Below, piece after piece: positions 42,143-46,563 of a stretch of 64,000 nt of DNA; positions within the stretch are counted from its first letter, which is position 1; each line of letters starts with the position of its first letter. The notes below the pieces were generated by a model that ran no database searches, was not told the origin of the DNA, and saw only the letters and a program-made list of their open reading frames with translations. This DNA is from Kiritimatiellia bacterium (GTDB taxonomy: Bacteria; Verrucomicrobiota; Kiritimatiellia; CAIVKH01): positions 109,786 to 173,785 of the forward strand of contig JANWZO010000002.1 in NCBI GenBank assembly GCA_025054615.1, given 5' to 3'. A program made the translations under genes and the position numbers.

Positions 42143-43660
42143 ATGACCTCCTTCGACTCCCTGCTGCCTCTGCTGGTGCTGATGACCTCATTGGTCACCG
42201 CAGTGATCATTTTCGCGCTCGGGGAGGACCGAATTCGCGCGCGTACGTTCGTGAACCTGCTGGGCGCGGTCGCGAAGCTGGCGCTCGTGGGCTACATGAT
42301 CTGGGGCTTATCGCAGGGCCGCCTGTTCGAAACGCGCTGGCCGTTCATGCCACAGCTCGATTTTGTGCTCCGCGCCGACAGCATGACGATCCTGTTTTCA
42401 ACGCTCTCCGCGGGGCTTTGGTTGCTGACGACGATTTACGCGATCGGCTACCTCGAAGGTTCGCCGAACCGGCGGCGTTTTTTCGGCTATTTTTCACTTT
42501 GCGTGACGTCGACGATGGGCATCTCGCTCGCCGGCAATCTGATCACGTTCTTCGTGTTCTATGAGCTGCTCACGCTGACGACCTACCCGCTGGTGGTGCA
42601 TCGCGGCACCGAGAAGGCCGTGCGGGCGGGATCGATGTATTTGCGGTATACCCTTGCCGGCAGCGCGTCGATGCTGGCGGGCATGCTGTGGCTCTATGTA
42701 ATCGCCGGACCGTTTGATTTTCGCGCCGCGGGCGTGCTCGCCCCGCTCGGGGACTCGCACAGGCCCCAACTAATCGCCATCTTTGCCCTACTGGTCGGCG
42801 GGCTCGGCGTCAAGGCGGCCATCGTTCCTCTGCACAAATGGTTGCCGACCGCGATGGTCGCGCCCGCGCCAGTCAGCGCGCTGCTCCATGCGGTGGCCGT
42901 CGTCAAGGCGGGCGCGTTCGGTATTGTGCGCGTGGTCTACGATGTCTATGGCGCGGAACTGGCGCGCGACCTCGGCGTGCTGACGCCACTCGCCGCCTTT
43001 GCGGCCATCACCATCCTCTATGGATCCCTCCGCGCGCTCGCGCAGGACGATTTCAAACGACGACTCGCCTTTTCCACGGTGAGCCAGGTTTCCTACATCA
43101 CGCTCGGGGTGAGCCTGTTCGGGCCGATGGCAACCATGGGCGGTCTTGTGCATCTCGTCCACCAGGGGATCATGAAAATTACGATGTTTTTCGCCGCGGG
43201 CAACGCGGCAGAGGCGCTGGGTGTACACAAGATTAGCGAGCTTGACGGGGTGGGGCGCCGTTTGCCCGGCACGATGGCTTCGTTCACGATTGCCGCCCTC
43301 GGCATGATCGGCGTGCCGCCGCTGGCGGGCTTTGTGAGTAAGTGGTACCTCGGCTGGGGAGCGGCCGAGGCCGGACAGTATTGGGCGCTCGGCGTTCTGG
43401 CCGCCAGCAGCCTTCTGAACGCGGCGTATTTCCTCCCCATCCTCTACCGCGCCTGGTTCAAGCCACAGCGGCACCCGTGGCCGCATGAGCATCCCCACTC
43501 TGGCCGACTCGAAATCTCGTGGTGGTTGCTATTCCCACCGGTGGCGACGGCGGCGCTCGTGCTGATCGCGGGACTTTTTGCCGGCCACCCCTTCAGCCCG
43601 TTGAGCTGGGTGCAGATCATCACCCGCCAGGAGTACCCGGCCCCCGGGCTGTCTGATTAG
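42143..43660 (+). CDS. Mrp antiporter NuoL/M/N-type subunit, second copy
   Basis: The 505-residue polytopic protein has FYELLTLTTYPLVVHRG (conserved Glu), GLGVKAAIVPLHKWLPTAMVAPAPVSALLHAVAVVKAGAFGI (two Lys and the HK pair), FSTVSQVSYI and HQGIMKITMFFAAGNAAE. These are the proton-channel residues of MrpD/MrpA/NuoL. It lacks the C-terminal MrpA modules, which are encoded separately upstream (39123-40119), so it may stand for the antiporter part of MrpA. ATG 42143 follows GCAGGAG. The gene lies between palindrome array 3 and the non-coding island at 43661-44796. Confidence 0.9.
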   Translation: MTSFDSLLPLLVLMTSLVTAVIIFALGEDRIRARTFVNLLGAVAKLALVGYMIWGLSQGRLFETRWPFMPQLDFVLRADSMTILFSTLSAGLWLLTTIYAIGYLEGSPNRRRFFGYFSLCVTSTMGISLAGNLITFFVFYELLTLTTYPLVVHRGTEKAVRAGSMYLRYTLAGSASMLAGMLWLYVIAGPFDFRAAGVLAPLGDSHRPQLIAIFALLVGGLGVKAAIVPLHKWLPTAMVAPAPVSALLHAVAVVKAGAFGIVRVVYDVYGAELARDLGVLTPLAAFAAITILYGSLRALAQDDFKRRLAFSTVSQVSYITLGVSLFGPMATMGGLVHLVHQGIMKITMFFAAGNAAEALGVHKISELDGVGRRLPGTMASFTIAALGMIGVPPLAGFVSKWYLGWGAAEAGQYWALGVLAASSLLNAAYFLPILYRAWFKPQRHPWPHEHPHSGRLEISWWLLFPPVATAALVLIAGLFAGHPFSPLSWVQIITRQEYPAPGLSD

Positions 43661-43863: not shown

Positions 43864-44099
43864 CGGCGGTTGTGTAAATCGAGGAAAGTGAGTGTTTTTC
43901 CGATAGCGCGGACCCGGCTAGAAGTAGGGCTCTAACAAGCTCCTTCTCCTTTGACCGAACGGGGCGATTTGATCTCCGGGTGGTAGGCCCAAACGGCTCA
44001 AATTCTCTGTGAAGGGCTGAGTTGCTAAGGATCGTTGAAACTATTTATAAAGTCCCTCTCAGGGTAAGAGGAGTGCGTGGGCACGGCCTACCATCTGGG

Positions 44100-44465
44100 G
44101 GTCGGCTATCACGCCGACCTTCGGAAGGACAGGTTCTGGCCTGCTGCAAAGGGGCCCGCGTGGAAGCGGGCTCTCCAAGGAAGGGATGAATTTGGCGCCG
44201 GTGGAACGGCGCTCTCCACAAAAGGTGCGGAATGAACATCGCCCTTCAACGCGTTCGGATGTGGAAGTCCGAATTCCAACCCGCGCTCAATTTTTGAAGG
44301 GGCGAGTTCTACCTCGCCTTATTATTTTTGTAAAAGCTGGTCCCGCCCCGCCTGGAATCGCGAAGGGGCAACTTCCACCTCGTCCGCCAATCGTGGAGTT
44401 GCAAAATTCACCCTTTTCCAGCCCCAAACGCGCACCTGATCAAGGGCGCACGGTCATGTGCGCCC
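44100..44465. repeat. Cluster of stem-loops with a conserved hexaloop (GTGGAA-type)
   Basis: Five perfectly paired hairpins lie here, plus one with a terminal G-T pair. GGTCGGC/GCCGACC with loop TATCAC is at 44100-44119, GCCCGC/GCGGGC with loop GTGGAA at 44154-44171, and GCGCCG/CGGCGC with loop GTGGAA at 44195-44212. TTCGGAT/GTCCGAA with loop GTGGAA is at 44254-44273, GGCGAG/CTCGCC with loop TTCTAC at 44301-44318, and GGGCGCAC/GTGCGCCC with loop GGTCAT at 44444-44465. A degenerate one has loop TTCCAC at 44373-44378. Stems differ in sequence while loop and size stay similar, and TTCCAC is the complement of GTGGAA, so units occur in both orientations. TCTCC follows two of them. Confidence 0.85.
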
Positions 44466-44796
44466 AAGGAGAGTAAGCGGATGAATAGATCAGGACTCTG
44501 AATCCAGCATTTCAGAGATTGCGTGGCCTCGTTGGGAATTGGATCACGCAGACTCCTACATGTCTGACCTCTGTGTGCCGATCCGCGTCACCGCTGCTTT
44601 CGTGATCTGTATCTTCTGAAGAACGGTGTCTTGACCTTCAGCCTCGTTCGCCTGTTTTAACGCCTTCAAAGTTGTCCGCTCACAGCGTTGCGCCCTCCTC
44701 TGCCGTGGATCATTACCTACGGATGTGCAAGGAGACATTTTCAGAGCGTGATGAGAACGCGGATCTTGAGGATTTGACTCGCGGTACGGGTCGTTT

Positions 44797-46563
44797 ATGT
44801 TTGCGGGCCTTGGTGCCCGCGGGGCTATGATAGGTTCAGAATTGGTCAATCACGGTTTGCTTGCCTTGGCGCTGGTTGCGCCGCTACTGGCCGCGGCCGC
44901 GCCGCGAGCGACGATTTTCGCCGCGCTCGCGCCACTCCCCACGATCGGCCTGGCGTTTGCGGAGCCGTTTGAGGTCGGTTTCCGCGAACTCCTGCTGGGG
45001 GCGAGATTCGGCGTGAGTACGGTCAACGCCCCCTTTCTGCTGATCGCCGGCTGCCTCTGGACCGCCGCTACGTGGTTCGCGCGGCACTACATGGCGCACG
45101 ACGGGCACGCGAATCGCTATCATGTGTTCCACCGGCTTGCGATGGCCGGAAATATCGGCCTGATCCTCGCGCAGGACCTTGCCACCTTTTACTTCTTTTT
45201 CGCGCTGATGAGCCTCGCGTCGTATCCGCTGGTGATCCACGACGGGCGTACCATTTCGCGTCGGGCCGGTCGCGTGTACCTTGCGCTCGCCCTGCTGGGT
45301 GAGGTCGTTCAGTTTGCAGCGTTTTCGGTCATCGCCTCTCAGGCGGGCGGATGGACGTTTCCGGCCGCGCGTTCGGCGTTGACGGAATCGCCCTACCGGC
45401 CCTGGTTGCTCGGGATGGTGATCGCGGGATTCGGCATCAAAGCCGCACTTGTACCGCTGCACGTCTGGCTGCCGCTCGCGCATCCGGTCGCGCCGACTCC
45501 GGCCAGCGCGGTGTTGAGCGGCTCGATGATTAAGGCCGGCCTTTTGGGTTGGCTGAATCTGCTCCCACTTGGAGGAATGGCGGCACCCGCATTGGGAGAG
45601 GGGCTGATGGTTGCCGGCTTATTGGGTGTGTTCGGCGCGGCTCTGGTGGGCGTCACGCAGCGGCAGCCGAAGACGGTACTCGCTTATTCGAGTATCAGCC
45701 AAATGGGGCTGATGATCCTCGCAGTAGGAATCGCCCTCGCAAGTCCGGAGGCGACGCGCTACGTCCTACCTGCCGTATTTCTGTATGCGCTTCACCATGC
45801 GCTCGCAAAGTGTGCGCTGTTCCTAGGCGTCGGCATGGCCGCGAGCGCTCCCCGCGCCAACATCGGGCGCATCGCGTTATGGATCGGACTGGCGATCTGT
45901 GGGCTGGCGCTGGCGGGCGCCCCGCTCACGAGCGGAGCGGTCGCGAAGGTTTTCCTGAAAGCGGTGGCTGCGGCTGCGCCCGGCGAGTGGCCCGATCGCC
46001 TTGCCTGGCTGCTGCCCTGCGGAGCCGTGGGCACGACCCTGTTGATGGCGCGGTTCCTCTGGACATTGAGGGCAGCGATCGACTCGACTCCGGATTCCCA
46101 TCATGCTGCGTCGAGATCTATTTGGATGCCGTGGACGGCCCTGTTGGCTCTGGTCATCCTGCTGCCGTGGTGGTTCGCGCAGGCTCTCCATGCGGAGAAA
46201 ACCGCGCAGGCGCTCTCGATGAAGTACGCCGGAACGCTCGCTGTGCCTGTGGTGGTTGGCGCCCTGGCCGCGATGGCTGCTCGCTATGCCTTCTCTAGCC
46301 GCGCGCCGGAAATTCCTGCGGGCGATGTTCTCGCGATACCTGCGTGGGCGGTCTCCAGGCTGACCAGCTTTTACCGACTTCAGCGGCCTTCGCTGGGCCG
46401 TGGAATCCGTGCGGCCGAGGAGGCGCGTTCGCTCGCGCGCGATGGGATGAAGGGAGCGCTCCGCGGATTGGCGGGCGCCGAGCGGTATCTGCGGACTCTC
46501 GCCGTGGCCGGTTTTGCCCTCGCCCTGCTCGCGGCCCTGACGATCTGGCGCCTGGCCCCCTGA
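44797..46563 (+). CDS. Mrp antiporter NuoL/M/N-type subunit, third copy with extended C-terminus
   Basis: Up to 588 residues; ATG 44827 is an equally good start (MIGSELVNHGLLALAL) and neither has a clear ribosome site. It has the antiporter core: FFFALMSLASYPLVIHDG (Ser-Leu-Ala where others have a Glu), GFGIKAALVPLHVWLPLAHPVAPTPASAVLSGSMIKAG, and ALHHALAKCALF. The Glu of the first helix bundle motif is not evident, unlike in copies 1 and 2. The last 90 residues form an amphipathic arm plus a final membrane helix (LAVAGFALALLAALTIW), which recalls the NuoL lateral arm. It is separated from copy 2 by the 1.1-kb island. Confidence 0.85.
   Translation: MFAGLGARGAMIGSELVNHGLLALALVAPLLAAAAPRATIFAALAPLPTIGLAFAEPFEVGFRELLLGARFGVSTVNAPFLLIAGCLWTAATWFARHYMAHDGHANRYHVFHRLAMAGNIGLILAQDLATFYFFFALMSLASYPLVIHDGRTISRRAGRVYLALALLGEVVQFAAFSVIASQAGGWTFPAARSALTESPYRPWLLGMVIAGFGIKAALVPLHVWLPLAHPVAPTPASAVLSGSMIKAGLLGWLNLLPLGGMAAPALGEGLMVAGLLGVFGAALVGVTQRQPKTVLAYSSISQMGLMILAVGIALASPEATRYVLPAVFLYALHHALAKCALFLGVGMAASAPRANIGRIALWIGLAICGLALAGAPLTSGAVAKVFLKAVAAAAPGEWPDRLAWLLPCGAVGTTLLMARFLWTLRAAIDSTPDSHHAASRSIWMPWTALLALVILLPWWFAQALHAEKTAQALSMKYAGTLAVPVVVGALAAMAARYAFSSRAPEIPAGDVLAIPAWAVSRLTSFYRLQRPSLGRGIRAAEEARSLARDGMKGALRGLAGAERYLRTLAVAGFALALLAALTIWRLAP

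Follow-up and report, generated by a model that had tools for sequence, protein, structure and literature searches.

Fixed-loop, variable-stem hairpins in a Kiritimatiellia genome: probable REP-type elements associated with one branch of RAYT transposases

The 1.1-kb gap between two co-directional proton antiporter genes of a Kiritimatiellia bacterium is occupied by an array of short hairpins, and the question is whether these hairpins act as a regulatory RNA or are copies of a repeat. At positions 44100-44465 of the window, which is the whole 64-kb stretch of DNA analyzed, there are n = 5 hairpins whose loop has six bases and whose Watson-Crick stem pairs perfectly over at least 6 bp. Dinucleotide shuffles of this segment (n = 2,000) contain 0.13 such hairpins on average and 2 at the maximum, and nowhere else in the window do three of them fall within 366 bp. 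The cluster is real and strongly non-random. A reading made from the sequence only had described perfect paired stems under a constant six-base loop, with GTGGAA in three of the hairpins, and both points hold. It had also called the stems unrelated, which they are not, since a GG/CC foot is common to them, as is a CTCCA tail that adjoins the stem on its 3' side.

The array (Table 1) is a worn example of its family, with two clear units, two diverged units, and others that are weak. The hairpins starting at 44100 and 44444 score only 11.3 and 12.7 bits with the family model, against 27.7 to 40.5 bits for the four best units. Family membership of the 44444 hairpin is uncertain; its loop has no central GG and it has no CTCC tail. 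Stems of the GGTCGGC type are found again elsewhere in the genome, as is the stem of the first clear unit, for example at locus L052. Just upstream of the array lies a separate 19-nt inverted repeat (43971-43989 / 44085-44103, 79% complementary, 95 nt apart). Just downstream is a hairpin CTCTGAA/TTCAGAG with an eight-base loop (44496-44517), which is outside the GTGGAA family.

Table 1. Hairpin units of the array and the genes on either side, in window positions
Feature	Position	Strand	Details
Upstream flanking gene, Mrp/complex-I-type proton antiporter subunit	42143..43660	+	PF00361, E 2.3e-57
Worn unit	44090..44123	-	stem GGTCGGC/GCCGACC 44100-44119; loop GTGATA; tail CCCAG replacing CTCCA; 11.3 bits
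Clear unit	44149..44183	+	stem GGCCCGC/GCGGGCT 44153-44172; loop GTGGAA 44160-44165; tail CTCCA 44173-44177; perfect core GCCCGC-gtggaa-GCGGGC from 44154; 40.5 bits
Clear unit	44190..44224	+	stem GGCGCCG/CGGCGCT 44194-44213; loop GTGGAA 44201-44206; tail CTCCA; perfect core GCGCCG-gtggaa-CGGCGC from 44195; 38.1 bits
Diverged unit	44250..44284	+	stem TTCGGAT/GTCCGAA 44254-44273, T-G pair closing the loop; loop GTGGAA 44261-44266; tail TTCCA; 27.7 bits
Reverse unit	44289..44323	-	stem AGGCGAG/CTCGCCC; loop GTAGAA 44312-44307; tail CTTCA; perfect core, plus-strand reading, GGCGAG-ttctac-CTCGCC from 44301; 31.5 bits
Worn reverse unit	44355..44389	-	broken stem GGACGAG/GTTGCCC; intact loop GTGGAA 44373-44378; tail CTTCG; 8.4 bits
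8-bp perfect hairpin GGGCGCAC/GTGCGCCC	44444..44465	.	loop GGTCAT; 12.7 bits on the minus strand
Downstream flanking gene, another proton antiporter subunit	44797..46563	+	PF00361, E 5.6e-38

The unit consists of GG-N5-GTGGAA-N5'-CC followed immediately by CTCCA, which on the opposite strand is TGGAG, stem, TTCCAC, and stem. A DNA search of the genome to which the window belongs (2.48 Mb, 51 contigs) finds partial copies that are scattered. A covariance model (R1) of 23 units, four from the window and among them the unit at 44149..44183, gives 70 matches at E<=1 in this genome (G000). They form ~23 clusters, several of which are at contig ends, and both orientations are common. Further copies with the same loop are present, and of the 64 ungapped copies 51 have GTGGAA. 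Most tails are CTCCN, and the base preceding TGGAG can be any of the four. A set of stems recurs, including GGACGCC, GGCGCGG, GGCGCCG, GGCCCGG, GGTCGGG, GGACGGC, GGACAGG, and others, and some units resemble hybrids of two stem types. Much the same stem set is present in relatives and in other phyla, with the same loop and tail. When the 70 copies are aligned, all seven stem pairs have matched changes on both sides, and 94.7% of the alignment cells pair, compared to 63.5% in shuffles. The covariation score is 0.715, compared to 0.182 in shuffled alignments and at most 0.136 when the partner column is slid. Of the two points proposed earlier, paired change in both arms is strongly supported by these numbers, and a family of small structure-based repeats is confirmed. 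As palindromic repeats of 20-40 bp with many copies, inverted dimers, and clusters, the units have the size and copy number of REP (repetitive extragenic palindromic) elements.

Among the PVC bacteria, in which the sequence-only reading had proposed a search, relatives of the units are present in Kiritimatiellae, Verrucomicrobia, Lentisphaerae, and Planctomycetes. The family is present in 47 of 193 sampled Kiritimatiellae genomes and is patchy even inside genera. An exact pattern scan of species genomes gives at least 104 stretches. Among the matches listed are Kiritimatiellae, Sumerlaeia, Lentisphaerae, Verrucomicrobia/Opitutia, Thermogutta (Planctomycetes), and some others, and cultured Pelagicoccus and Pontiellaceae are included. 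Odd hosts such as Deltaproteobacteria and Anaerolineales are metagenome bins and may contain stray contigs. The pattern occurs in only two putatively viral contigs, both IMG/VR entries (L234 and L235).

Inverted neighboring units are common and have set spacings of 38, 37, 29, 26, 47, 32, or 22 bases. In four genomes, none of the 66 inverted neighbors shares its stem with its partner, whereas ~11 would be expected, and no homotypic long hairpin is found among them. Per genome, the stem-shuffle expectations are 2.9, 3.2, 3.2, and 1.7, with P values of 0.043, 0.026, 0.017, and 0.12, respectively, in which the copies of one dimer are non-independent. A preference for heterodimers has also been reported in other REPs; according to that account it has no obvious explanation, and an escape from SbcCD is suggested (PMC3733652). 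One dimer of genome G022 is missing at the matching site of its congener G045, where the flanks are ~90% identical. The dimer-less site of G045 (L309:2100-2300) carries a different palindrome-rich repeat, TTTCGACTCGCCC...GGGTTCTGTCGAAGC, which may belong to another repeat family that uses these sites too.

The first Y1 transposase loci examined had no units beside them, which directed attention to one specific branch of the RAYTs (REP-associated tyrosine transposases). In about a dozen genomes, the units flank genes of this branch or sit in frame within them. At loci L149 and L152, the open frame that contains the units reads as a Y1 HUH transposase. Against the NCBIfam model NF047646 (REP_Tyr_transpos, cut-off 80), four of the open reading frames score 78.8 (L149), 84.7 (L222), 86.9 (L163), and 74.2 bits (L152), and a profile of these four (A4) matches the solved TnpA-REP of E. 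coli, 4ER8. In-frame units are located between the HUH (PDHIHLF) and Y (EYVRxNPVR) motifs in L149, L222, and L152, and also at the N-terminus; homologues without units have just a few residues at this position.

Further RAYT members were found with the A4 profile. In a tree of 30 RAYTs, 16 have units within ~1.5 kb, compared to 1 of 50 other Y1 transposase loci, which has one single unit; these counts include the four RAYTs of the profile, which had been found through adjoining units, and some genomes chosen for carrying units. When only RAYTs outside the profile and genomes not chosen by their units are counted, the numbers are 7 of 17 and 1 of 30 (hypergeometric P ~0.002). The presence of units clusters on the tree, with 6 changes compared to 10.3 in shuffled labels, and 2 of 500 shuffles are as low. 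The loop type differs by RAYT and can be GTGGAA, ACGGAG, GTGGCA, CGGGAG, GAGGAC, or GGGGCC, whereas the GG/CC foot and the CTCC tail are constant across all of these loop types.

Across genomes, A4-type RAYTs and GTGGAA units are not tightly correlated. The A4 profile finds no cognate RAYT in the assembly that holds the window (G000), whose only Y1 gene is of a different type, is cut by a contig end, and has no units beside it. In genome G050, a RAYT is present, and the 1.5 kb on either side of it are free of units. No RAYT is found with PF01797, A4, or NF047646 in G028 (36 units), G067, and G071; SCGC AH-151-A22, which appears to be of the same genus as G028 judging from coordinates that match (G073 and G114), has a long open frame that contains three RAYT matches. 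PF01797 fails to recognize the RAYT of L149 and also missed that of G050, and therefore absence by PF01797 alone is not evidence. A conclusion drawn from PF01797, that repeat-rich genomes lack a RAYT, was given up in part for this reason; G028 stays negative with the three profiles.

At L152:57-5419, a protein with an FGE-sulfatase domain (PF03781) and a reverse transcriptase (PF00078) adjoin the RAYT; the locus has the look of a diversity-generating retroelement, and units are within both of these reading frames. Locus L277 (G073:C7:12061-13401) is an open frame of 1396 aa with three successive RAYT matches and units between them, and it looks as if RAYT and units had been amplified together in frame. 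The RAYTs at L149:3939-4598 (an Anaerolineales bin) and L222:1185-1892 (a Verrucomicrobiia bin) are 83% identical and differ by whole in-frame units, a likeness that may come from recent transfer or from mis-binning. The 4.8-Mb genome G035 has 62 Y1_Tnp (PF01797) matches, far above any relative.

The hairpins are very probably copies of a REP-type, non-autonomous mobile element that is moved by a RAYT. In this RAYT-associated REP family, the foot is atypical, the hexaloop is fixed, and the stem is nearly free, and the loop and foot are common across phyla. RAYTs are Y1 HUH single-strand endonucleases. A unit that becomes single-stranded, for example in the lagging-strand template, would fold as 5'-TGGAG-GG(N5)-TTCCAC-(N5')CC. 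The RAYT would recognize the loop and the TGGAG/GG-CC foot, cut, and rejoin, by which units and inverted pairs would be copied or moved; we infer the recognition and cutting of a single strand, and the choice of the strand to be cut, for this element. The inner stem would be checked for pairing and hardly for sequence, and could drift through matched changes. Inverted partners with unlike stems would persist because two partners with the same stem would make up a long palindrome, which replication and repair would presumably remove. Stem drift and the loss of long palindromes would together lead to many stems and unlike partners. Such a readout, with loop and foot taken by sequence and the stem by pairing, would agree with the assayed group-3 TnpA-REP enzymes, whose activity requires particular bases in the loop and an unbroken stem but withstands many stem swaps (PMC8266576).

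With its worn copies and no cognate RAYT found in its own genome, the array in the window is probably an immobile remnant, or else the RAYT falls in a gap of the assembly. A REP can persist after its RAYT is gone. Given this and the gaps in the assembly, the missing RAYT weakens the claim of current mobility and not that of kinship. A more far-reaching proposal, which is plausible though somewhat short of an even chance, is that one RAYT branch reads only the loop and the foot and is blind to the stem, so that one enzyme mobilizes an open-ended range of stems, and that avoidance of palindromes drives the stems to diversify.

An RNA element had been suggested for the window, namely transcribed hairpins whose GGA hexaloop is bound by a CsrA/RsmA-type protein, either as a sponge or as a leader regulator. 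GGA does occupy loop positions 3-5 as in CsrA sites, and the stems covary. However, a search for CsrA (PF02599) is negative in all eight repeat-bearing genomes tried, which are the genome of the window and seven relatives, and positive in control genomes, and the sponge was rejected on this ground. The orientations of the units are mixed, and other RAYTs go with loops without GGA such as GTGGCA and GGGGCC. Stem mismatches are G-T in 22 cases and A-C in 17; since the two are similarly rare, there is no G-U strand bias and neither strand is favored as RNA. Rfam gives no match for the window at gathering scores and only tRNAs for 14 repeat loci at E<=0.5. The earlier statement that no named family fits is correct as far as Rfam is concerned, but the units behave as RAYT-associated REPs. 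All this makes the RNA reading highly improbable. An H-type pseudoknot between the loop GTGGA and the tail TCCAC was also considered and rejected: the stem of 6-7 bp directly precedes the tail and leaves no linker that could span it, and loop and tail are no longer complementary in GTGGCA with CTCCC and in GGGGCC with CTCCA.

A different possibility is that the units persist because they serve the host, at the DNA or the RNA level, through functions such as bidirectional attenuation, protection of mRNA 3' ends, or binding of gyrase or nucleoid proteins, and that the spread by RAYT is only historical. Such functions have been proposed for REPs and BIMEs. They would suit the genomes that have many perfect units and in which no RAYT is detected, G028 most of all, and one unit followed by a T-rich stretch has a terminator-like score (44299-44320). 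Near the array, though, there are 3 terminator-like sites compared to 1.6 +/- 1.3 in shuffles, which is no excess, and the patchy distribution even inside a genus, the worn state of the copies in the window's own genome, and the units within coding frames make a host function an unlikely reason for their upkeep. The units could still have a secondary effect on transcripts. Mutation bias alone could also be invoked, in which template switching perfects imperfect palindromes with no selection on the hairpin. Quasipalindrome correction is an established mutational process, and the units that look like two-stem hybrids would suit it; it may still be a source of stem variants. As a full explanation it is highly improbable, because correction of the arms does not explain the constancy of the loop, the GG/CC foot, and the unpaired CTCC tail over phyla, and the units are linked to one RAYT branch.

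The mobile-element reading bears on the selection of repeats by RAYTs and on the preference of REP dimers for unlike partners. The assays of PMC8266576 covered only three RAYT-REP pairs. The present family offers hundreds of natural substrates with fixed loop and foot and varied stem, beside RAYTs with differing loops, and the specificity between loop and enzyme is thus directly testable. It accounts for a hairpin that recurs in Kiritimatiellae and other PVC genomes and could be taken for a regulatory RNA, and it makes clear that RAYTs of the L149 and G050 kind escape Pfam PF01797. If the stem-blind branch is real, it would be a natural selection experiment in several phyla that separates the readout of loop sequence from that of stem shape.

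When compared to known systems, the family resembles in many features the GTAG-tagged REPs (PMC3733652), which include those of the verrucomicrobium Opitutus terrae. Both have short palindromes that form clusters and inverted dimers of the outer-tag and inner-tag type, in-frame copies within genes, association with RAYTs, complementary stem changes, and a preference for heterodimers. In contrast, the GT[AG]G tetranucleotide that marks the hairpin foot of the GTAG/GTGG superfamily is not found here; the tag is TGGAG at the foot of the stem, and the base before it is not a fixed G. The loop has six bases, whereas the GTAG loops mostly have 2-4 bases. Moreover, the inner stem is nearly free in one genome while the loop and foot are common between phyla. 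From the GTAG families of O. terrae, the present family is set apart by the tags given for them in the text of PMC3733652, GTAG or GTGG, rather than letter by letter.

The TnpA-REP subclass 2.4, or RAYT group 4 REPtrons (PMC6006769), shares the in-frame REPs between the HUH and Y motifs of the transposase, the patchy multi-phylum spread, the G-C pairs at the stem bottom, the WQ motif, and a Y motif of the Y-x-x-N-P type. It differs in the HUH motif, which is DH[IVL]H here and NH[IFV]H as reported, the group-4 motif being compared by its description, and the REPs here, which are short hairpins, lack the GT[AG]G foot. The class 3 Y1 transposases that go with CnGA-foot hairpins, such as those of Solibacter (PMC6006769), are similar in the atypical foot and the high copy number, but their Y motif is Y----Q and their foot is CnGA rather than TGGAG. 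In Pseudomonas, the GTAG-1 dimers of P. putida and P. entomophila are mostly homotypic, according to PMC3733652. As in the Pseudomonas REPINs (PMC3116915), inverted REP pairs are the likely mobile unit of the present family; unlike those GTAG-1 dimers, all inverted pairs counted here are heterotypic.
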